Made by a program: the position numbers and the translations under genes. Positions 42,405 to 59,403 of a DNA stretch of 64,000 nucleotides are shown piece after piece. A model generated the notes under the pieces. It was given only the letters and a program-made list of their open reading frames with translations, had not been told where the DNA came from and did no database searches. The stretch is from Mangrovibacterium lignilyticum (lineage in GTDB: Bacteria; Bacteroidota; Bacteroidia; Bacteroidales; Prolixibacteraceae). The first letter of the stretch is position 1. Each line of letters begins with the position of its first letter. The stretch lies in assembly GCF_010882175.1 (NCBI RefSeq), contig NZ_WKLH01000004.1, positions 73,425-137,424 of the forward strand, in the 5' to 3' direction.

Positions 42405-43815
42405 AATGACTCATTTTTTTGGTTTTTAATTTATCGGGATTTGAAACAACAATTTCAGTGAAATGACCGAATTGCCCGGTTTGGGAGAACACAGTCCGGC
42501 AGCTCCCTTGCTGAAACCGACGGAGTTGGTTCGTAGAGGTGCTTGTTGACTTGTTTTTACGGGTTTTTCGGTGTAACGCGAACAGTTGATGCTGGTGTGG
42601 CCCTGGAATACGAGGCCTGAAGGCGCAGATACAACCAGATAGTCGGCGGAGACAGTTAATCGGGCAGCCTGTACAATGTATACGAGCCCATATACAACCA
42701 TATTTTAAGCGGATACAGTTAACAATTTTGCAGATACGGTTGTATATGCCGTTTATATGGTTGTATATGTCATTTATATGGTTGTATATGTCGTTTATAT
42801 GGTCATATAATTCATTTATATGGTTGTATATGCCGTTTATATGGTTGTATATGTCATTTATATGGTTGTATATGCCGTTTATATGGTCGTATAATTCATT
42901 TATATGGTTGTATATGCCGTTTATATGGTTGTATATGTCATTTATATGGTTGTATATGCCGTTTATATGGTCGTATAATTCATTTATATGGTTGTATATG
43001 CCATTTATATGGTTGTATTTTAGTGGATATTGTTCAATACAGCCCCTTTTTGGGCTGTTTTGGGGCGAAATGGCCCAAAATGGCACTTGTGTTGGTTGAT
43101 CGATTGGCGATCGTTCTAAAAGATTTAAACAGACCATGGGTGATGGTTAAAGGTTTTAGTTGTTTATTTTCTGTCGAAAACAACTTTAATCGCTTTTAGA
43201 ATGATCCACTTGTAGTAACCGCTTTACTCTTTGTCCTGTCAGGCTGCACAGAGGCAATCCTTTTTAAAAATCGATGCTGCCAGGCACCGCAAAATGCGCT
43301 GCAGCTTTTTATTTGTTCCTTTGTTGAACGGGTCGGCAGACTTTATGTCTACGGAACAGCAAGTTATGACTGTTAAGCATAAGAATTGCAAACAATGAAA
43401 CAATAAAATGCACAAATGTGCTGAACAGCAGGTTTGTGGGTGCTTGTAACTAGGGGGTTGCTTATTTAAATTAGTTTCATTTTTGCTTGTAGGCAGGTGT
43501 TGAGACCGGGTTTCCGGCCATTAGTCGGAGCGCATCGTTACCGCCCGATTCAGTCGCGTTAACTTGTTTTAGCTTCCATTCGGTAAACCTCCCGGAACGG
43601 TGAGGCTTCAGTCGTCTTTAAGGGGATTCAGGTGTCAGGAACCCGGGCCGGCCTTGCAAGCTAATTGTACCGACAAAACTCAATGGACTTTCGGCCCAAG
43701 CCCCTTCCGTTTCCGGGCACAGTCTTCCCGGGCGGTCACTCTTTCGGGCAGCAGATTTCAAATCACGGGTTGATGGCAACCGGGCGAAACATTTAGGCGA
43801 AGGGTTTGGTGTGCC
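42405..43815. other. Long non-coding region with tandem repeats
   Basis: 1.4 kb with no convincing gene. It contains the tandem array 42738-43030, which keeps both strands open by lacking stop codons, a degenerate inverted copy of the unit near 42690-42705, and GCTGC...GCAGC-TTTTT (43275-43319), a possible plus-strand terminator. 43500-43800 is more GC-rich and shows no frame. Confidence 0.55.
42738..43030. repeat. 21-bp tandem repeat array in an 84-bp higher-order pattern
   Basis: Thirteen contiguous 21-bp units from 42738 to 43010 (GGTTGTATATGCCGTTTATAT and three variants) plus a decayed fourteenth. The order of variants repeats every four units: 1-4, 5-8 and 9-12 each end in a 'CATATAATTCAT/CGTATAATTCAT' unit. 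If read on the minus strand each unit is a heptad (NHINGIY, NHINDIY, NHINELY) with isoleucine at a/d-like positions. Confidence 0.9.
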
Positions 43816-49619: not shown

Positions 49620-51680
49620 CTAAATGGACTTCAAAACCACCATCTCATTTTGTTTTTCAATGATGGCTTGAATGAATTGTTTCAGTTCCTGGTATTCTGT
49701 CGGCAGGAATATGTCTTTGCGAATAGAAATCGCCGAATTGATCAGCAATATGCCTGCCATCGATTTACATTGATAGGTAAATGTTCCACCGGAATTGGGC
49801 AACTGAAAGGTCGTTGTTTGCGGCAGCTCCGATATCTCCAGGTTTGGTGGAAGTGTGATGGAGAATGATTGTTGCAGGCTGATGGGGTAATCAAATTCAA
49901 CCGGGAACCCGCGTTCATCCAACTTGAACGGGTTTTCATCAAAAAACGGGTCAATGCCGGTATTGAAATAAATCAGCTCCCCGGCATCCATCACCAAATC
50001 GTTCGCCTCCAGGCTGTAGCTGTATTGTACGTTCATTCCCATCGAATCGATGGGAGGAACTTCCATGTCGGATATTGTATGTTTCGATTCTTTGTCTTCC
50101 ATCGTTTCGATGAATTCGTCCAGACTGTTGGCTTTTCGTGCATCGGTTTTAAAGGAATAAGCGGCATAGCCTGCCAGTCTCTTTTTGATTTTTCCGCGAA
50201 CATTCAGGCTGCTGTCCACCTGCATGACTGCATACGATTTCGAAGCATAAGGCTGAAAACTGTGCAGGTTAATCCATTTTTCCGGCGTATTTCCGATGAT
50301 GCGTCCCTGGTCATTCAAACATCTCACCGGAATCAGGTTGATGAACGAATTGGGATCAGTTGCATCCAGTAAGAAATAATGATCATCCACCTGGACATAA
50401 GCAATGACGTAATTGAAACGGGTCAATGATGGTCGTCCCAATAGAATTACGCCATGATCTTGGGTGCTTAAAATTAGCGGGTAGGCATTGAATCCTAATT
50501 CGCGCAACAGGATAACGAGGTTGAGATTAATATCGGCAACATTCCCTTCACCGTCTTTAAACGCCTTTGGCACCGATGAACTGGTGTAGTAGCCTCTCGA
50601 CCCGTTCCAGTTCATATTTAGTTGCATGTAGCGGAGGGCATCGCCCATCAGGCTGACATCGGTTGTGCCTGTGCTTTTCAGTTGCGCAACAGCATCGCTT
50701 AAATGATTTGTTTTGTTGAGTTCCCGACCGAAATTATAGCTCTCATTAAGTTTCTCGTCAATGTTTTCCCAGGTGGTGGTGTACGAATGCATGGGTGAAT
50801 TCGGAAACTTGGTGTAGGCCAGTTCAAATTCGACCTTGGTCAGGTAGTTCTCAGCGGTATGCAGGAATTTTTCATTCGGGAACGCCGGAATTTCATCGGC
50901 TGAATAATTGTAGCGGTATTCCGTGAAATCATAGTCCTTGGTGTACTTGTATCCATCCAGCATGCCTTCATCTTTTTGAATATAGGTGATGGTGAATTTG
51001 TTTTGCCGGCGATCGGTCTCTGTATTGATTGGGAAATAACCCTTCTGCGATTGGTTATAGTTGAAATATTCAGGGATGTCAACCAGGTATTCGCTATGCA
51101 TGACCGGGATCGATTTTTGAAAATACCACTCCTGCAGGTTGAACAGAAAATCGGAAACAATTTCATACTCGACTTCAATAATACAGCCTTCCTTTAAATT
51201 GGGCATGGCGAATTTGAGCGTGTTGACGTGCTCGCTTGTCTCTTCAATGTCAGCGTCTTTATTGTCGAGTTTTGTTTTTTCAATTTTCCCGTTTTCAAGG
51301 GTGTAGGTATATGCCTTGAATCCGATGAGTTTTTCTTTGTCGCCACCGTCAACGTACAGCGGGATACTGAAATCGCCATAGTCAAAACCTTCCTTCCGGA
51401 GGATTTTAATGCGGAAATGACGATTGAAGAAAAGCTGAAATCCTTTTTGGCTTGAAGAAACATCGTCCGACCGGATTGTTGACTCGGCATATCGAAAATC
51501 GGTTTGGCCTTTGTTGAAGATGTAGTAAGCATAGGCGTTTGAATCAATCGGACAAACAGTGGAAGTCATTTCTTCCATGCTGATTTTCCCGAACTTAATT
51601 TTCTGGTCACCGTCAGCCTTGGCTTCAATTTGCATAAAGAGCAAACAAAGACCAGCTAATGAATACAGGATTTTTTTCAT
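49620..51680 (-). CDS. DUF3857-domain exported protein, no catalytic cysteine
   Basis: A 686-residue paralog with signal peptide ('LLFMQIEAKA'), DUF3857 region (about 55-250) and a transglutaminase-like core. Where the neighbour has 'GDCKALSN', this one has 'GNVADINLNLV', so Cys is replaced and the fold is probably non-catalytic or binding only. 'LSTQDHG' follows. It is transcribed first, with the second gene 70 bp downstream. Confidence 0.83.
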   Translation of the reverse strand: MKKILYSLAGLCLLFMQIEAKADGDQKIKFGKISMEEMTSTVCPIDSNAYAYYIFNKGQTDFRYAESTIRSDDVSSSQKGFQLFFNRHFRIKILRKEGFDYGDFSIPLYVDGGDKEKLIGFKAYTYTLENGKIEKTKLDNKDADIEETSEHVNTLKFAMPNLKEGCIIEVEYEIVSDFLFNLQEWYFQKSIPVMHSEYLVDIPEYFNYNQSQKGYFPINTETDRRQNKFTITYIQKDEGMLDGYKYTKDYDFTEYRYNYSADEIPAFPNEKFLHTAENYLTKVEFELAYTKFPNSPMHSYTTTWENIDEKLNESYNFGRELNKTNHLSDAVAQLKSTGTTDVSLMGDALRYMQLNMNWNGSRGYYTSSSVPKAFKDGEGNVADINLNLVILLRELGFNAYPLILSTQDHGVILLGRPSLTRFNYVIAYVQVDDHYFLLDATDPNSFINLIPVRCLNDQGRIIGNTPEKWINLHSFQPYASKSYAVMQVDSSLNVRGKIKKRLAGYAAYSFKTDARKANSLDEFIETMEDKESKHTISDMEVPPIDSMGMNVQYSYSLEANDLVMDAGELIYFNTGIDPFFDENPFKLDERGFPVEFDYPISLQQSFSITLPPNLEISELPQTTTFQLPNSGGTFTYQCKSMAGILLINSAISIRKDIFLPTEYQELKQFIQAIIEKQNEMVVLKSI

Positions 51681-52088
51681 TGCAGTAGTGGGATTTACAG
51701 GTTAGTTCAAACAAGCTTTATTCTTTCTGTACAAGCCTGATTAAATTAAGCAGAATTTCGAATTTATTATAATATTTCTTTGAGATATTAATCAATTGTG
51801 GCCTATTTAAATTAAATATACATAAGATGATAACTTAGTGAACTACTTGTGAGTCCCTTAGTTTGGCGGTTTTAACATCCGATATTGAATGCTTTTGTCT
51901 GTTGTGATTAGTCCTGCGTTGGTATATGATTGACCGGTAGCGGCGAATTTTGCTTTCCGGGGAAGGTCCCGGAAGGGGAGATTAGCGCCATTTCTAAATA
52001 CTTGTTAATGGACCGGGGATATGTTTTCCGAACATTTCCCAATCCGGCAGAATTTAGTTTATTTAGTATTCGATTTATAAACTGCCTG

Positions 52089-52859
52089 ATGAAACAGACA
52101 AACTGCATCCTTTTTTGTCGCTGCGGTGCTAAAGTTATTGCTGACGCCCGTGCTGATGATTTGTCCAACCGGCTAAAAAAGCTGGATGCAGATGTCATGG
52201 AGTTAAGCGACCTGTGCGCTTTTTCGGTTCATTCTCCTCAAAGTCTTTTGGATATTACTGCCGGTTACACTCAAAAAGTCATCGTTGCCTGCTATCCGCG
52301 CGCTGTGAAAAACATGCTGCGACAAGGCGGGGCCACACTCGAAAATGTGACTGTTGTAAATTTCCGTGCGTTCGATAATGACGAAGTTGTCAGCACATTG
52401 CAATCGGATTATGGGTTTGAAGCCGGAGCGGCCAATTACCGGATCGAAAAAACCGGGTTGGATGTTCCTGCCTGGTATCCGGTCATCGATGAGTCGCGCT
52501 GTACTTCATGCGGGCAATGTGCCCGTTTTTGTTTGTTCGGCGTTTACAAATTTGAGCGTAAGAAGCTGGAAGTTACGAATCCGTTGAACTGTAAAAATAA
52601 TTGTCCGGCTTGCGGGCGAACTTGCCCGACACAAGCGATTATTTTTCCCCGCTTGGGGGAGAATAGTGTGCTTTCCGGTGCCGAGCCGGTGGAAAAAGCC
52701 CAACAAAATCACGGGAAGCAAGGCAGTTTGTTTGTCCTGCTGAATGAACGAAACAAATCACGACTATCAATCTTCCGTGAGGGAGTGGTGCAATTGGCCG
52801 AAGACGAACGGCGCAAAGCACTGGAGGAATTGAAGAACGTTAATAAAAAGAAAGAATAA
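52089..52859 (+). CDS. HdrA-like/diferredoxin electron carrier of the terpenoid locus
   Basis: A 256-residue protein from ATG 52089, where the conserved-looking part starts; the frame runs 53 codons further up without similarity. The N-terminal half has 'CRCGAKVI' (Cys10, Cys12), 'SDLCAF' (Cys43) and 'VIVACYPRAV' (Cys68), recalling the N-terminal thiol domain of HdrA. The second half is a two-cluster ferredoxin: Cys138-x2-Cys-x2-Cys-x3-Cys148 and Cys168...'CPACGRTCP' to Cys179. It starts a five-gene run with 3-14 bp spacing and probably feeds electrons to the radical SAM enzyme. Family not named. Confidence 0.75.
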   Translation: MKQTNCILFCRCGAKVIADARADDLSNRLKKLDADVMELSDLCAFSVHSPQSLLDITAGYTQKVIVACYPRAVKNMLRQGGATLENVTVVNFRAFDNDEVVSTLQSDYGFEAGAANYRIEKTGLDVPAWYPVIDESRCTSCGQCARFCLFGVYKFERKKLEVTNPLNCKNNCPACGRTCPTQAIIFPRLGENSVLSGAEPVEKAQQNHGKQGSLFVLLNERNKSRLSIFREGVVQLAEDERRKALEELKNVNKKKE

Positions 52860-52862
52860 ACG

Positions 52863-54038
52863 ATGTTGAACCAATTGCTCTTTAAAACCGATCGCCGATG
52901 CCTGCGCAAATTTGTGTATAATATGGGCATTAAAGGAGCAATAGGCTTTGCCCGGTTTCAGCGACGGCTAAAAAAGGGGGAGTTTTTCCCGGCCTTTCAT
53001 TTTATATCGGTTACCGACGATTGTAACCTCAATTGCCAGGGGTGTTGGGTGATGGGTAAAAAGAAGAATAGCCGCATGTCGCCCGAACAGCTCGACCGGA
53101 TTATTACCGAAACCAAAGCACAGGGATCCTATTTCTTTGGGATTTTGGGTGGAGAGCCCTTACTTTATAAGCCCTTATTTGCCGTTTTTCAGAAACATTC
53201 CGATTGTTATTTTCAGTTGTTTACAAACGGAACGCTACTGACGGAAGAGATCGCTGAAAAGCTTCGGGTGTGTGGGAATGTTAATCCGCTGATCAGTTTT
53301 GAAGGCGATGAAGACGTGGCCGATATCCGCCGTGGTGCGTCGAATGTTTTTCAACGCACGCAGCAAGCCATCGAAAACGCCACGCAGGCAGGGCTGATAA
53401 CGGGTGTTGCCATCAGCGTTTGTAAGTCGAATCTCGAAATGGCTTTGTCTGAGCGCTTCATCCAGTCATTGATCGATCAAGGAGTGTTGTATTTGTGGTA
53501 CTACATTTACCGTCCTGTTGGCGAAAATGCCACTGTGGAGCTTTGTCTGGACAAAGATGAAATTGACCAATTGCGGCAACACATGGTGGAGGCGCGTACG
53601 AAATATAAACTGATGATTATTGACGCGTATTGGGATGGTGACGGGAATGGGCTTTGCCCGGCAGCGTCCGGATTAAGTCATCACATTAACGCTTCAGGAA
53701 ATATTGAGCCTTGCCCGGTTATTCAGTTCGCAGCCGATCATGTTGACGATAAAGCGTTGGTCGATATCTACCGGGATTCGGCGTTTCTGCGAGACTTAAA
53801 AGTGGAATTGCCAAAGAAAACATCGGGTTGCATTGTGATGGAAGATCCCCAATGGCTGGCCGATTTTGTTGAGAAGTACAACGCGGCGGACAGCTCGGGA
53901 AGAGATAACGAGGCCGAAAGATTACGGGCAATGTCCCGGGTTTGCAGCCACGGATCAGGAAAGGTGATTCCGGAGAAAAACAAGTTATACCGTTTTGCAA
54001 AAAACCGCGCCTTCTTCGGACTGGGCGCTTACGGATAA
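52863..54038 (+). CDS. Radical SAM enzyme of the terpenoid locus
   Basis: A 391-residue radical SAM protein. The [4Fe-4S] motif is Cys54-x3-Cys58-x2-Cys61 ('DDCNLNCQGCWVMGK'), followed by 'GGEPLLY' and 'TNGTLL' of the SAM-binding core. Later cysteines ('GLCPAASG', 'IEPCPVIQF', 'SGCIVM') suggest a second cluster of the SPASM/twitch type. There is no B12 domain. Placement between a ferredoxin and a prenyl synthase fusion suggests that it modifies a polyprenoid, as HpnH does for hopene, but sequence likeness to HpnH is not evident by eye. Confidence 0.85.
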   Translation: MLNQLLFKTDRRCLRKFVYNMGIKGAIGFARFQRRLKKGEFFPAFHFISVTDDCNLNCQGCWVMGKKKNSRMSPEQLDRIITETKAQGSYFFGILGGEPLLYKPLFAVFQKHSDCYFQLFTNGTLLTEEIAEKLRVCGNVNPLISFEGDEDVADIRRGASNVFQRTQQAIENATQAGLITGVAISVCKSNLEMALSERFIQSLIDQGVLYLWYYIYRPVGENATVELCLDKDEIDQLRQHMVEARTKYKLMIIDAYWDGDGNGLCPAASGLSHHINASGNIEPCPVIQFAADHVDDKALVDIYRDSAFLRDLKVELPKKTSGCIVMEDPQWLADFVEKYNAADSSGRDNEAERLRAMSRVCSHGSGKVIPEKNKLYRFAKNRAFFGLGAYG

Positions 54039-54044
54039 AGATTT

Positions 54045-55613
54045 ATGATCAAGTCGCAACGATTATTGAAAGTTCCAAAGGATGTGAAGTTACGCAACCT
54101 GCTTCGTCATGCGGCTAATGCTGAGGTTACTGAACGGCAGTTGCAGCCTCCAATGGGCTTTGAACAGCTGGAGACTCTGGCCGAAGAGTTGCTGGAGAAA
54201 CAGAATGTTGATCGGGAATACCTCGATTTTACGATCGTTTTGTGTGGCAATGCCTTGTGGCGCGATGTGATTGCCGCGACACCTTTTGACCGGCGGCTTT
54301 TATTGCTGCCTCAATGTTTAAAAAACACCCAGTCCTGTCAGGGCGAAATGGATTCACTGGGATTGATTTGTGCCGGTTGTAAAGGTTGCCAGATTGACTC
54401 CGTCTTAAGCAAAGCCGAAGCGTTGGGATATACAACTTTGGTCGCCGAAGGAACAACAGTGGCAGTCGGACTGGTGGAAGAAGGAGCGATTGATGCGGTT
54501 ATCGGGGTCAGTTGTATGCCGGTGCTGCAGCGTTCGTTTGGTCCTGTTTCGCGAGCTGCTGTTCCGGTGATGGGTTTGCCGCTTTTATATGACGGATGTG
54601 AAAATACAAATGTCGATTATGGCTGGTTGTTCGAAGAGATGCACCAGTATCGGCCCCATCCGGATAAAGAGCCTTTGTCCGTTTCTTTGTTGAAAGATCA
54701 CGTTGAGGATTATTTTACCACTTCCACCCTAAAGAACTATTTTAAAGGGAAGGATGAGACGGAACATCTGGCGGTGAGAATGCTTGAAATAGGCGGGCAA
54801 CGCATACGACCGTTATTGACTGTCTTGGCTTATCGTTCGTATACCGATCAGCCCAATGAGGAAGTGCAGCAGCTGATGGCGATTATAATTGAATGTTTTC
54901 ACAAGGCATCGCTGATTCATGATGATATTGAAGATGATGACGACTATCGGTATGAACAGGAAACCCTGCATCGGACCAATGGAATCCCGGTTGCCATTAA
55001 TGTGGGAGACTTTCTCATTGGGAAAGGATACCAATTGTTGGCTGCCCTGAAAGTTGAACCGGTTTTGATTGCGGAATCGTTGAAGGTTGTTGCGGAGTCG
55101 CATCTGAATTTGTCGCGCGGGCAAGGGGATGATCTGGCGATGAATAAGGATCTGTTTCGCTTTTCGGTTGATGAAGTGCTGCACATTTTTACGCAGAAAA
55201 CCGGCGAGGCGGTGAAGGTCGCTCTTTTGTTGGGTGCCATCCAGGGAGGAGCACCGCAGTGTGATTTAGCGGTTTTAGCTCAATTTGCAGACTGGTTTGG
55301 CATTGCCTACCAGATTCGCGATGATCTGAATGAATTTCATTCCGAACAGGTACAGGAGCATGCGCATCATTTTCCGTTTCTATTGGCTTTGTTGAAGGAG
55401 AGGCTTCGTGAAAACGGCGGATCTGACATGATTGATTCCGTCGGGCCCGATAATTTTTCGCAGCTTTGTGCCATCATTCGGAAAGAGCAAGTTGATTTAC
55501 ATGCTGATGCCTTTCAAAAGTTATACGTTGACAAGTGTTTCCGCGAACTCGACAAACTTCAAAACCTGAAACTCAGACTCAGCCTTTATGGGGTGTTGGG
55601 TAAAATATTCTAA
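54045..55613 (+). CDS. DUF116-polyprenyl synthase fusion
   Basis: A 522-residue two-domain protein. Residues about 60-195 form a DUF116 domain with five cysteines (91, 98, 109, 112, 115; 'LPQCLKN', 'CAGCKGCQI') that could hold a metal cluster. Residues about 220-500 are a trans-isoprenyl diphosphate synthase: 'GGQRIRPLL', first Asp-rich motif 'HDDIEDDDDYR' (Asp293-Asp300) and second 'IRDDLNEF' (Asp426-Asp427, last Asp replaced by Glu430). The degenerate second motif hints at altered chemistry or substrate. The fusion ties DUF116 to prenyl chain making. Confidence 0.85.
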   Translation: MIKSQRLLKVPKDVKLRNLLRHAANAEVTERQLQPPMGFEQLETLAEELLEKQNVDREYLDFTIVLCGNALWRDVIAATPFDRRLLLLPQCLKNTQSCQGEMDSLGLICAGCKGCQIDSVLSKAEALGYTTLVAEGTTVAVGLVEEGAIDAVIGVSCMPVLQRSFGPVSRAAVPVMGLPLLYDGCENTNVDYGWLFEEMHQYRPHPDKEPLSVSLLKDHVEDYFTTSTLKNYFKGKDETEHLAVRMLEIGGQRIRPLLTVLAYRSYTDQPNEEVQQLMAIIIECFHKASLIHDDIEDDDDYRYEQETLHRTNGIPVAINVGDFLIGKGYQLLAALKVEPVLIAESLKVVAESHLNLSRGQGDDLAMNKDLFRFSVDEVLHIFTQKTGEAVKVALLLGAIQGGAPQCDLAVLAQFADWFGIAYQIRDDLNEFHSEQVQEHAHHFPFLLALLKERLRENGGSDMIDSVGPDNFSQLCAIIRKEQVDLHADAFQKLYVDKCFRELDKLQNLKLRLSLYGVLGKIF

Positions 55614-55627
55614 ATATCGGTCCGAAC

Positions 55628-56488
55628 ATGGTAACTCATCAGGTTTTATACCGCCAATTTATCGCCAAAATAAAGCTTGGTCTGCGTTTGTTGGGAGATG
55701 AGCAACAAACGGAAATCCGACAATTTGTTATCAATTCACAACATCAGTCCGGTGGTTTTACCGACCGCGGAGGAGCTCCCGATTTGTACTATTCCGTGTT
55801 TGGAAGCTGGATGGCTGAGGCATTGGATTTAAAGCCGGAAATAACAAGGCTGGAAAGCTGGATTAAAAGCTTGAAGGACGAGGAACAAGGCAATGGTATT
55901 CACCGCTTCTCGCTGCTGTTTCTGCAACAATCGCTTATCCAACAGCGAATGTCTCCTCTGAATTTGACGAAGAAGTTGTTGCTTCGGGATTTCCCGGTGA
56001 ACTTCAGCTATCAGCTGTTTTTGGCTTTGCTACTGGTTGATACTGCTTACGGGCAAAAAAGGTGGGTACGAGTTTTCGGGAGGATAATGCTCACTTTTTA
56101 CCGCTTGCCTCAACAAGTTCCTTGCAGTATGGTTGCTGCTTTGTTGGTCGCGAGATCAAGCCTGAAAATGAGGACGGCATCGTTGCAGAAAAACTTAGTA
56201 CAATATTTCCGGCCGGAAAAAGCTTTTGTGGCCTTTGCTCCAATGGAGGAGCCGGACCTGTTATCAACCGGAGTGGCTTTGTTTGCGTTGGAAAAAGCGC
56301 AAACTGATTTGAGAGAAATTGCCCCGGACTGTTTAAGCTTCATTCAGCAAAATTATCGCGATGGTGCATTTCTGGCGGGCGACGGTGATCCGGAATGCGA
56401 CCTGGAGTACACCTTTTACGGATTGCTTGCGTTAGGAAGTCTCGGCTCTTTTTTAGCCAGAACAACGGGTGATCAGCTAAAAAAATGA
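55628..56488 (+). CDS. Small alpha-toroid (prenyltransferase-like) protein
   Basis: A 286-residue all-helical protein. It has repeats like the alpha/alpha toroid of prenyltransferases and terpene cyclases: 'NSQHQSGGFTDRGGAPDLYY' near the start and 'NYRDGAFLAGDGDPECDLEYT' (shown in part) near the end, with 'STGVALFALEKA' between. It lacks an obvious catalytic DxDD, so it could be a cyclase subunit or a chaperone for the large cyclase 3 bp downstream. Confidence 0.7.
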   Translation: MVTHQVLYRQFIAKIKLGLRLLGDEQQTEIRQFVINSQHQSGGFTDRGGAPDLYYSVFGSWMAEALDLKPEITRLESWIKSLKDEEQGNGIHRFSLLFLQQSLIQQRMSPLNLTKKLLLRDFPVNFSYQLFLALLLVDTAYGQKRWVRVFGRIMLTFYRLPQQVPCSMVAALLVARSSLKMRTASLQKNLVQYFRPEKAFVAFAPMEEPDLLSTGVALFALEKAQTDLREIAPDCLSFIQQNYRDGAFLAGDGDPECDLEYTFYGLLALGSLGSFLARTTGDQLKK

Positions 56489-56491
56489 ACC

Positions 56492-58300
56492 ATGAACCAG
56501 GGAGAACTGAACGATAAATCGACACAACTCACCAAAATGCTTTTGGATGAAATGAATCCGGGTGGATTTTGGACGGGAGAATTGTCGTCGAGTGCTTTGG
56601 CTGTGGCGGTTGCAATTGCAGCCCTTCATTTTTATGATCCCCGGGAGCATGCTTCTCAAATTCAGTCGGGTTTAAAATGGCTGCAAGCGAATGTGAATGC
56701 CGATGGTAGTTTCGGAGATACGCCCGATAGTCCGGGAAATGTGAGCACAAGCCTGTTGGTTTATGCCGCTACGAATTTGTATGCCGGAAAGGATCGGGCG
56801 ACAAAAGCGCTTCAACAAAAAATCGGTAGTTGGCTGGCTGGATTGGGTATTGATGTCAATTCAGAAGATGTGTCTCAGTTCATTTTAAACCATTATCAGA
56901 ACGACTACACTTTTTCTGTTCCTATTTTAACGCTCTGTGGCTTGTGTGGTGTTCCCGGGCCGACTGCTTTTCAGTTTGTGCCACAATTGCCTTATGAGCT
57001 GGCCCTTTTACCCCGAAAGTTTTATCGCTTCCTGAAATTGAGTGTTGTCAGTTATGCGATTCCGGCTTTGGTCGCAGTAGGAATTGTTGTTTATAAGAAG
57101 AAAAAACAGCATTGGTTTTGGCGCTCCGTACGTCATTTTTCGATTTCTCCGGCGCTCAAAAGACTGACTGCTATGATGCCGGCGAGTGGTGGCTTTTTGG
57201 AAGCAATCCCGCTGACTGCATTTGTTTCCTTAAGCTTGGTTGAAGCAGGGTACAAAGAGCATGAGGTGGTTAAAAATGGAATCAGGTTTTTGAAGCAAAC
57301 ACAGCGGTTGGATGGCAGTTGGCCAATTGATGTCGATTTGTCAACCTGGGTGACAAGCTTGTCGGTAAAGGCACTCTATCGAAAGGCAGATTTCACACTG
57401 GGAGCCGGCCAAAAGCAAAAACTGGTTACACATCTGCTGGATTGTCAGAATAAGCAGGTGCATCCGTTTAACGGGAGCAAACCCGGAGGATGGGGATGGA
57501 CTCATTTTCCCGGCTCGGTGCCGGATGGTGATGATACACCGGGCGTGATTTTGGCTTTATTGAAGCTTAGTGACGAACCGGGAGTTTTGGCCGCAGTTTC
57601 GACAGCTTGCCTTTGGTTGAGGGAATTGCAGAACTCGGATGGTGGGTTCCCGACTTTTTCGCGTGGCTGGGGAAAATTGCCCTTTGATCAAAGCAGTTGT
57701 GACTTAACCGGTCATTGCGTGTTGGCATTATCAGCTGCCTTAAATCGTTGTTCGGATGTTTTTACACCGTCGGACAGGCAGAAGGTTGAAAAGATGGTTT
57801 TAAGAGCAGTTCAATATCTGGAAAAGCATCAGCAGCGTAATGGCAGTTGGTTGCCGCTGTGGTTCGGTAATCAGCATACAGCGAATCATGCCAATCCGGT
57901 TTACGGAACAGCCCGGGTTACCAGCTATCTTCAGGACACCCTTCAGCTTGGATTGATTCCGGACCCGGTAACTCATAAATTGACCATTTTGATCCCGAAA
58001 GCACAGCATTTTTTAGGGCAAGTACAGAATCCGGATGGAAGTTGGGGAGGAGACTTCGAAGTTGCAGGCAGCATTGAAGAGACAGCACTCTCCATTTCGG
58101 CCTTGTCGGACAGCGCATTGTATCAAGCACCCTGTAAACGAGGCTTGCAGTGGCTTTCTATAACCGGGTTAAAGGGGTACAAAGCATCGCCTATTGGGCT
58201 TTACTTTGCCTCCCTCTGGTATGATGAAAAACTTTATCCGCTTAGTTTTTATCTTGAAGCTGTTAACAGATTGCTTGAAGCTGAATCATTGCCGGAATAG
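56492..58300 (+). CDS. Squalene-hopene-cyclase-like class II terpene cyclase
   Basis: A 602-residue two-toroid protein of near full squalene-hopene cyclase length (about 630). The protonating motif DxDD is Asp345-Gly-Asp347-Asp348-Thr ('PDGDDTPG'). Several QW-like repeats are visible ('QRLDGSW', 'QNSDGGF', 'QNPDGSWGG'), and the C-terminal 'NGSWLPLWFGN...NPVYGT' matches the cyclase end. A hydrophobic segment near 'YAIPALVAVGIVVYKK' fits the membrane-entry region. It should cyclise a polyprene by acid catalysis. No squalene synthase genes are in the window. Its end overlaps the next minus-strand gene by 52 bp. Confidence 0.82.
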   Translation: MNQGELNDKSTQLTKMLLDEMNPGGFWTGELSSSALAVAVAIAALHFYDPREHASQIQSGLKWLQANVNADGSFGDTPDSPGNVSTSLLVYAATNLYAGKDRATKALQQKIGSWLAGLGIDVNSEDVSQFILNHYQNDYTFSVPILTLCGLCGVPGPTAFQFVPQLPYELALLPRKFYRFLKLSVVSYAIPALVAVGIVVYKKKKQHWFWRSVRHFSISPALKRLTAMMPASGGFLEAIPLTAFVSLSLVEAGYKEHEVVKNGIRFLKQTQRLDGSWPIDVDLSTWVTSLSVKALYRKADFTLGAGQKQKLVTHLLDCQNKQVHPFNGSKPGGWGWTHFPGSVPDGDDTPGVILALLKLSDEPGVLAAVSTACLWLRELQNSDGGFPTFSRGWGKLPFDQSSCDLTGHCVLALSAALNRCSDVFTPSDRQKVEKMVLRAVQYLEKHQQRNGSWLPLWFGNQHTANHANPVYGTARVTSYLQDTLQLGLIPDPVTHKLTILIPKAQHFLGQVQNPDGSWGGDFEVAGSIEETALSISALSDSALYQAPCKRGLQWLSITGLKGYKASPIGLYFASLWYDEKLYPLSFYLEAVNRLLEAESLPE

Positions 58301-59403
58301 CTCGATTGGTCGCAACCCATCATGGGAATATATTCCCCCTCGGTTGTCATGTAACTGCCCATTAGGTTTGCGGTTAAACAACTGTGTGCCGGGATGATTT
58401 CAATTAAATCTCCGACCTTGAAGTTGTTAAAGGCTTGGATCGTTGTTCGAATGACACCGTGTTCCTGGCTCAATTTATAGAGGTAATTTCTTTCGTCCAG
58501 TAAGATCTTTTCTCCGTTTCTATTTACAACGATCTGTCCGTATAAACGTTTCCCGTCGATATTGATGATTGAGTCTTTGGAGATGTGTGCTGCTCCTCCG
58601 TAAACGATGACTTCGCTGCGACTGCCGTGTTTGCCAATTACCGGGCATATTAAACGAAGCGCGATATCTTCAAAATCGCACGAGCCGAGCTTATATTGCA
58701 TCAGGTCGAAGAATATGAAGTTTCCTGGTCTGATTTCGTCAATTCCGTCAAAATTTTCGCAAAGACATGCTGAAGGCGTGTCGCCTAAGGATAAAATCAA
58801 ATCGGGAAATTCTTTCTTGTAGTGGTTCTTCAGTGCTTTCATTTTTAGCACAGCGTCAAAGTGGCGGTTGTATATATCATGTCTGCTTTGTGCAAGATAG
58901 GTATGGCCGGTGTGAGATAGAAATCCGATAAACGAGAACTTCTTTGTGCTTTTAATTACATCGAGCATGGCATTGATACCAAGGTATTTGTTCGAGGCAA
59001 TGCCGGTCCTGTTGTGACCCGTGTCTATTTCAATGAAAATCCCCACTTTTTGTTTGATCTGGGTGGCAAGTACCTCCACTGATTCCAGGTTCTCAATCAG
59101 CAGGTTTAAGTTGACATCCTTGGCTAAAGCATTAATTTCTTCTATTTCAAGAATATTAACCGGGAATGCGATTGTAATATCGTTCCATCCGTGTTTGGCG
59201 AAGTATTGAGCCATTCGGACTGAAGATACCGTAATGGCAGTGACTCCAAAGTCACGAAACCAGTTTCCGATAATCGCAGATTGATGTGTTTTAAAATGTG
59301 GACGAAAAACCAGGCCTTTTGCTTTGGCTTTTTCTGCCATCATGGAAATGTTCCGTAAGCAAATTTCCTTGTCCAGTAATAATGTGGGGCGAACGAAGTT
59401 CAT
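58249..59403 (-). CDS. PLP D-threonine aldolase/D-serine dehydratase-like enzyme
   Basis: A 384-residue fold-type III PLP enzyme with the cofactor lysine in 'RPHFKTHQS' (Lys38) and the zinc pair 'AHSCLTANL' (His, Cys) typical of D-threonine aldolase/D-serine dehydratase. Other family blocks are 'EIDTGHNRTG' and 'LSLGDTPSA'. It would act on D-3-hydroxy amino acids in the cytosol. Its last 52 bp overlap the cyclase gene head-on. Confidence 0.88.
   Translation of the reverse strand: MNFVRPTLLLDKEICLRNISMMAEKAKAKGLVFRPHFKTHQSAIIGNWFRDFGVTAITVSSVRMAQYFAKHGWNDITIAFPVNILEIEEINALAKDVNLNLLIENLESVEVLATQIKQKVGIFIEIDTGHNRTGIASNKYLGINAMLDVIKSTKKFSFIGFLSHTGHTYLAQSRHDIYNRHFDAVLKMKALKNHYKKEFPDLILSLGDTPSACLCENFDGIDEIRPGNFIFFDLMQYKLGSCDFEDIALRLICPVIGKHGSRSEVIVYGGAAHISKDSIINIDGKRLYGQIVVNRNGEKILLDERNYLYKLSQEHGVIRTTIQAFNNFKVGDLIEIIPAHSCLTANLMGSYMTTEGEYIPMMGCDQSSYSGNDSASSNLLTASR

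Follow-up and report, generated by a model that had tools for sequence, protein, structure and literature searches.

Hopanoids and sterols are cyclic polyprenoids that shape membranes and leave molecular fossils, and they are usually predicted from the presence of a squalene synthase together with a squalene-hopene cyclase (SHC). SHC-like cyclases classically act on squalene. Class II cyclases that act on chains bearing a head group are also known, and the sesquarterpene pathway of Bacillus provides a squalene-free route, in which heptaprenyl diphosphate is the precursor, tetraprenyl-beta-curcumene is formed by a class I curcumene synthase and SqhC is the cyclase. Here we describe a five-gene cassette, g1-g5, at positions 52089-58300 of a 64,000-nucleotide stretch of the Mangrovibacterium lignilyticum genome (phylum Bacteroidota; positions 73,425 to 137,424 of contig NZ_WKLH01000004.1), which is called the window below and to which all coordinates refer. 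The product of the cassette is most likely a terpene lipid with rings, made without a squalene synthase. Similar to the Bacillus pathway, it combines a polyprenyl synthase with an SHC-like cyclase and is squalene-free, whereas the radical S-adenosylmethionine (SAM) enzyme, the DUF116 domain and the HdrA-like protein encoded beside them have no known counterpart in the Bacillus pathway. One component has been noted before, since the same DUF116-polyprenyl synthetase fusion was reported as Psta_0175 in Pirellula staleyi (Makarova et al. 2015; PMC5898192), in a paper whose accessible text mentions neither a cassette or pathway nor a cyclase or radical SAM partner. No description of the five-gene cassette was found in the open-licence literature of PubMed Central, a scope that leaves subscription journals and preprints outside. 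The cassette combines terpene cyclisation with an uncharacterised redox and radical toolkit.

The five genes are located on the forward strand. The first, g1 (52089-52859), encodes a 256-residue protein with an HdrA N-terminal-like domain and a 2[4Fe-4S] ferredoxin domain. It is followed by g2 (52863-54038), a radical SAM enzyme with a partial SPASM/twitch-like C-terminus (a label assigned by eye); g3 (54045-55613), a DUF116 domain fused to a polyprenyl synthase domain; g4 (55628-56488), a small alpha-alpha toroid protein related to the beta subunits of protein prenyltransferases; and g5 (56492-58300), a class II, SHC-like terpene cyclase with an intact DxDDT motif. Coordinates and Pfam searches confirmed the description given in an earlier note, which was made from the sequence alone and reported five genes on one strand, the motifs of their products and spacings of 3, 6, 14 and 3 bp. 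The start of g1 is most likely the ATG at 52089 and not the upstream TTG at 51930, because homologues align from the former with the CxC motif in register. The gene on the 5' side of the set (49620-51680) is encoded on the opposite strand, and the gene on the 3' side (58249-59403; D-serine-dehydratase/alanine-racemase type) is convergent and overlaps g5 by 52 bp; therefore, the unit comprises exactly five genes. Promoter and terminator scans returned 11 and 12 sites, respectively, against 8.7 expected in each case, and gave nothing usable.

Among related genomes the cassette is conserved in content and order. When g5 was used as a query against 41 genomes (the genome itself, 24 from the genus and family, and 16 from other families of the order), it was present in 13. 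The five genes occur in the same order and on the same strand in ten of twelve g5-bearing loci of related genomes, and one further locus lies on a cut contig. All five were also found in 17 of 20 further family loci chosen for the fusion; among these 17, an end gene is partial in two loci and g3 is broken in another (L063). Two of the 20 are truncated by the end of their contig. When named genomes were scanned with the g2 alignment, 80 of at least 454 relatives were kept, and 60 of these loci, nearly all from Bacteroidota, contained the complete set. Sixteen of the other 20 loci end at or near a contig end, and four (L089, L101, L111 and L146) do not. Bacteroidota carriers of all five genes belong to Mangrovibacterium, including Mangrovibacterium marinum DSM 28823 (L076), Carboxylicivirga, Labilibacter, Marinifilum, Ancylomarina, Parabacteroides, Tannerella and rumen Prevotellaceae. 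Outside this phylum, complete cassettes were found in Lentisphaerae and Victivallis records, and a Kiritimatiellales record has g1-g3 before its contig is cut.

In a mirror-tree comparison of 85 loci, the pairwise distances of the five proteins correlate with one another (Spearman 0.78-0.88). In a combined tree of g2, g3 and g5 from 88 loci, the M. marinum cassette joins that of Carboxylicivirga linearis with a support of 1.0, apart from the window copy and L014 (genome G003), although these belong to the same genus. This position outside its own genus suggests that the cassette moves as a whole, and transfer of the entire set between lineages appears to have taken place. From the large alignments we dropped loci shorter than 75% of the window copy, such as L107 and L063, and L024 was excluded as a duplicate of L076. 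No sixth gene of at least 90 amino acids is common to the surroundings of all 32 loci searched, smaller genes lying outside this search, and some genes recur next to g5 in subclades only.

Two side observations concern individual loci. In L057, L058, L063 and L064, a gene resembling a CobW-type GTPase (by eye; cluster c16) adjoins g5, or g3 in the case of L057, and clusters c9 and c13 recur near it in this subclade. A record titled Eubacteriales (L097), possibly a misassigned contig, carries the cassette in the same arrangement as the Parabacteroides record L095.

Beyond Bacteroidota, we searched one draw of 288 genomes from the phylum of the Lentisphaerae record G511 (Verrucomicrobiota in GTDB) for g1, g2, g3 and g5. 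After partial matches had been dropped (synthase-only matches in G604, G717 and G800 from the g3 count, and ferredoxin-only matches in G630 and G671 from the g1 count), g1 was present in 51 genomes, g2 in 49, g3 in 52 and g5 in 53. All four genes occur together in 47 genomes and any of them in 55; Fisher p values for the co-occurrence are below 1e-40, with kinship ignored. In 21 of the 47 genomes g2, g3 and g5 share one contig, and in ten they are found on three different contigs. Among these ten, G706 was checked for position inside long contigs, and its g2, g3 and g5 lie within contigs of 886, 298 and 1,528 kb, with no other cassette gene in the 16-18 kb read around each; the other nine may reflect broken assemblies. 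Since the three genes lie on separate contigs in ten genomes and nevertheless co-occur, their link exceeds gene order. Thus, the view of the earlier note that the five genes form one functional unit is supported both by the conserved cassette and by the co-occurrence of g1, g2, g3 and g5 even when unlinked.

The central enzyme of the proposed pathway is the cyclase. Pfam identifies the N- and C-terminal SQHop_cyclase domains in g5; at a threshold of E 0.01, the window's genome has no second match of this type. The residues of its PDGDDT motif (D345, D347, D348 and T349), together with D404 and H408, are present in 91 of 91 sequences and align to the DVDDT motif and the D-V-T-A-H stretch of SHC. 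The DxDDT motif is therefore intact, as had been noticed earlier, and the residues for protonation-initiated cyclisation are kept throughout the family; a class II cyclisation step is very probable. An in-frame TGA that one search suggested inside g5 of some genomes turned out to be the ordinary terminal stop in the three copies checked. Although g5 resembles squalene-hopene cyclases in being a class II cyclase with the DxDDT motif and the SHC-type Asp/His pair D404/H408, it scores only 93.3 bits against the squalene-hopene cyclase model TIGR01507, for which the cut-off is 431.1.

This score bears on one alternative, an ordinary hopanoid or squalene route fed by a squalene synthase encoded elsewhere in the genome. 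The earlier note had reported no squalene synthase, which holds for the window, but the genome does contain one gene of the squalene/phytoene synthase family (PF00494). This gene lies beside CrtI- and CrtD-type desaturases, both of which score over their curated cut-offs, and it reaches none of five listed cut-offs, including those of HpnC, HpnD and phytoene synthase; as it sits among carotenoid genes, it was rejected as a source of squalene. In a 100-genome draw from the window's family, a PF00494 gene accompanies g3 in 42 of 57 genomes, the window's included, as the hopanoid route would have it, whereas none was found in the other 15, among them the single-contig genome G098 (the 57 include partial or split copies in G018, G088 and G061). 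Nor was PF00494 found in 48 of 59 other genomes with g2 and/or g3, the completeness of which is not given. Carriers in which it was not found include three Parabacteroides, an Ancylomarina, a Prevotella from yak omasum and an Odoribacter. PF00494 is thus dispensable for carriers of the cassette, and its absence from many of them makes squalene from a known synthase unlikely as the substrate of g5; whatever g5 cyclises, it is almost certainly not squalene made by a PF00494 enzyme. The earlier suggestion of a non-squalene substrate is supported by the same counts in so far as the substrate need not come from a known squalene synthase. The cassette further differs from the hopanoid pathway in its partner genes, and both g5 and g2 fall below the cut-offs for hopene cyclase and HpnH, respectively (for g2, see below). 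The hopanoid route is largely refuted by the missing PF00494, and we regard it as very improbable.

A prenyl chain could be supplied by g3 instead. Both halves of the fusion are recognised well above the Pfam cut-offs, namely DUF116 (PF01976; 1e-29, 103.4 bits against 25) and polyprenyl_synt (PF00348; 7.3e-39, 133.9 bits against 27). Seven cysteines of the DUF116 domain, including C109-x2-C112-x2-C115, are invariant in 104 of 104 sequences, as are the aspartate motifs of the synthase domain, D293 D294 x x D297 and D426 D427; the second motif ends in Asp in 78 sequences and in Glu in 26. The first Arg of the RR motif, the KT lysine and the QxxDD motif are likewise kept. With these residues, whose usual roles are on the allylic side, the synthase domain should bind and ionise an allylic diphosphate. 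Small residues ahead of the first aspartate motif go with long-chain products, and A288 and S289 of g3 suggest a long product by this rule. The AlphaFold model of g3 is confident, with a predicted local distance difference test (pLDDT) of 90.6 and a predicted template-modelling score (pTM) of 0.90, and each of the 50 Foldseek matches listed is either an isoprenyl diphosphate synthase or a prenyltransferase with the same fold. These matches all fall on the synthase half, the DUF116 half being without a match among them, and a sequence-profile search with DUF116 against PDB found no relative (best E 0.63). That the prenyl chain comes from g3 is, on balance, probable. In G749, a genome that also has the fusion, a relative of the g3 synthase domain occurs on its own, with no DUF116 attached (L247, 7116-8087).

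For the DUF116 domain of archaea, a flavodoxin-like, metal-binding and electron-transfer function has been proposed (PMC5898192, accessible text), and g1 would be a suitable partner. Pfam finds Fer4 in g1, and the HdrA-N-like region holds C10-x-C12, C43 and C68. Among 109 sequences, C10 and C12 are present in 107 (the other two having gaps), C172 in 108 and the other nine cysteines in all. The likeness to HdrA (8.9e-6 by profile) is confined to the N-terminal CxC...C...C region and the 2[4Fe-4S] ferredoxin region, whereas the flavin adenine dinucleotide (FAD)/thioredoxin-reductase domain of HdrA was not found in g1 by Pfam, and the matched chains and models have 643-777 amino acids compared with 256 in g1. 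In seven genomes (G706, G709, G718, G586, G736, G753 and G754), g1 occurs as two neighbouring pieces in separate open frames, one HdrA-N-like and the other ferredoxin, which therefore mark the domain border. Furthermore, g1 adjoins g2 without g3 in G777, G621 and G652, and g3 without g2 in G532 and G638, an arrangement that fits an electron donor shared by g2 and/or DUF116. A role of g1 as a dedicated electron donor is likely, and there is a good chance that g1 and DUF116 constitute a redox pair.

The second candidate acceptor of these electrons, g2, belongs to the radical SAM superfamily (Radical_SAM, 2.7e-18, 67.1 bits against a Pfam cut-off of 29.5). All three cysteines of its CX3CX2C motif (C54-x3-C58-x2-C61) are present in 110 of 110 sequences, as are C265 and C284 near the C-terminus, and C323 in 109; the latter three recall a reduced SPASM domain (labelled by eye). 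The closest solved relative by profile is the SPASM-type enzyme SkfB (1.3e-16). HpnH, the adenosyl-hopene transferase, offers an analogy, being likewise a radical SAM enzyme that acts with an SHC-type cyclase, and the earlier note had cited it to show that such enzymes can modify hopanoids. The g2 protein is not HpnH, as it scores 41.5 bits against the HpnH model TIGR03470, well below the cut-off of 225.05, and has SkfB as its best solved relative instead. We lean towards a radical step that acts on the terpenoid.

The remaining protein, g4, matches the Prenyltrans toroid family at 0.0017 in the window copy, which is under the curated cut-off, and at 0.01 or better in eight of eleven aligned copies (best 2.1e-10). 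Its profile is nearest to the beta subunit of RabGGTase (8.5e-10), with which it shares the toroid and sequence motifs, whereas the structural match is weak, no Foldseek hit being at 0.001 or better (best E 1.1e-3). At the zinc-binding positions of RabGGTase beta, the Asp is retained (Asp52, 94 of 96 sequences), but the Cys and His are replaced by tyrosines (Tyr54 and Tyr261) in 96 of 96, and a role of g4 as a protein prenyltransferase was rejected on these grounds. The same replacements argue against lipidation of a protein or peptide as the function of the whole system, in which a peptide would be prenylated and to which the profile likenesses of g4 to RabGGTase beta and of g2 to SkfB might otherwise point. 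Lipidation would in addition leave the intact SHC-like cyclase unexplained, and the surroundings of the cassette offer no universally recurring gene above 90 amino acids, the lower size limit of that search, so this explanation seems highly doubtful.

Taken together, we estimate a probability of roughly 0.6 that the locus encodes a dedicated, squalene-synthase-independent pathway to a cyclised and radical-modified polyprenoid lipid. In the proposed scheme, the synthase domain of g3 would bind an allylic prenyl diphosphate and build or transfer a polyprenyl chain, which g5 would protonate through its DxDD motif and close into rings, perhaps with the help of g4. The radical chemistry of g2 would then functionalise the product by adding or changing a group, and g1, with three predicted [4Fe-4S] clusters, would provide low-potential electrons to g2 and to the DUF116 domain. 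A dedicated polyprene pathway had been put forward in the earlier note; the functional unit, the cyclase residues and a substrate that need not come from a known squalene synthase are supported, whereas an identity of g2 with HpnH is not.

Several observations weigh against this reading. We know of no established chemistry for any member of the cassette. Its distribution is patchy, since just one of the 16 genomes sampled from the order's other families has g5, and a g3 match at E 1e-60 was found in one of 395 genomes of the window's phylum, namely its own. The 21 rows listed for that draw each have a completeness of 99% or more, and the draw may favour well-sampled lineages, which makes it weak evidence of absence. 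Incomplete sets also occur: in G040 the 15 kb read around g5 contains none of its partners, and the G086 locus (L057, 7714-10171) has only g1 and g3, adjacent to each other. In the Lentisphaerae-type phylum, G634, G644, G728 and G737 have g1, g3 and g5 without g2, and G659 and G766 have g5 alone among the four genes searched; in the same search, G732 showed only g2 and g3, and G575 only a remote g2. Gene order is looser in this phylum as well: the surroundings of g2 were read in 20 of the 49 g2-bearing genomes, and all five genes are together at eight of these loci, with g2 preceding g1 at two of the eight. Scattering of the genes in relatives had been named in the earlier note as a finding that would speak against a shared pathway. 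Such scattering does occur here, yet the co-occurrence of the scattered genes is nearly perfect, and this speaks for a pathway. In the family draw, moreover, the fusion and PF00494 are positively associated, as 17 of the 43 genomes without g3 have a PF00494 gene (odds ratio 4.3, p 9e-4, uncorrected for kinship); this association may reflect kinship.

The last points against it concern the side of the g3 active site that presumably accommodates isopentenyl diphosphate (IPP). In 103 of 104 sequences a Tyr takes the place of the second Arg of the RR motif, and Lys287 is found in all 104 at a position where the canonical synthase of the genome has Asn. Because of these two substitutions, IPP may not be the acceptor, and g3 could use either IPP, bound in a remodelled site, or a different acceptor. 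In the latter case, g3 would transfer the prenyl group to a small acceptor, which might be a ring or a nucleoside-derived group that g2 produces, and g5 would cyclise the chain of the resulting meroterpenoid. The near-invariance of the Tyr and the invariance of the Lys fit this alternative, as do the drimenyl diphosphate synthases among the PDB matches of g5 and the precedent of class II cyclases working on chains with head groups. On the other hand, the lack of a universal sixth gene of at least 90 amino acids at the 32 loci means that no acceptor-making gene is evident, and we consider prenyl transfer to such an acceptor unlikely.

The same substitutions may be read in another way, in which DUF116, fed by g1, would donate electrons through iron-sulfur (Fe-S) clusters while g3 handles allylic diphosphates. 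The outcome would be either head-to-head joining to a squalene-like chain or reductive removal of the diphosphate, and g5 would cyclise the hydrocarbon. This would account at once for the fused redox domain and for the missing squalene synthase, PF00494 not having been found in 48 of the 59 genomes mentioned above, and it would give an SHC-like cyclase a substrate close to its classical one. The retention of the allylic-side residues along with the loss of one IPP-site Arg is consistent with it, as is the presence of g3 and g5 in 51 of 51 genomes with g1, in four of which g2 is missing. A redox-type domain fused to a prenyl enzyme also agrees with the redox role proposed for DUF116 in the accessible text of PMC5898192. 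Against it, two of the three basic positions on the IPP side are kept, since R255 is present in 104 of 104 sequences and Lys is the commonest residue at K252 (70 sequences, against 25 with Gln, 4 with His, 4 with Arg and 1 with Gly), and DUF116 has no solved relative by sequence. Coupling with the aid of an Fe-S domain also has no precedent known to us in the fold of the g3 synthase. On this view, squalene-like or other hydrocarbon polyprenes would arise by a third route that needs neither squalene synthase nor HpnCDE, with the g5 and g2 steps to follow; we consider this tentative proposal improbable. If true, Bacteroidota and the Lentisphaerae-type phylum would possess sterol- or hopanoid-like lipids of a family so far unrecognised.

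Elsewhere in the window, at 42734-43018, there is a tandem array of a 21-base unit, best described as 3.4 copies of 84-base units with 98% matches. The open frame that contains it reads as a repeated NHINGIY-type peptide and probably exists only because of the repeat.

The cassette is common to marine and gut Bacteroidota and to Lentisphaerae relatives, with a patchy distribution. In many genomes in which PF00494 was not found, a cyclase with intact catalytic residues is inherited with its own redox and radical machinery, and DUF116, a domain listed in Pfam as being of unknown function, gains a concrete biochemical setting. If the predicted lipid is made by the pathway proposed here, these bacteria would contain an overlooked membrane or signalling terpenoid, and some of the cyclic terpenoids of sediments or the gut may have an unsuspected source.

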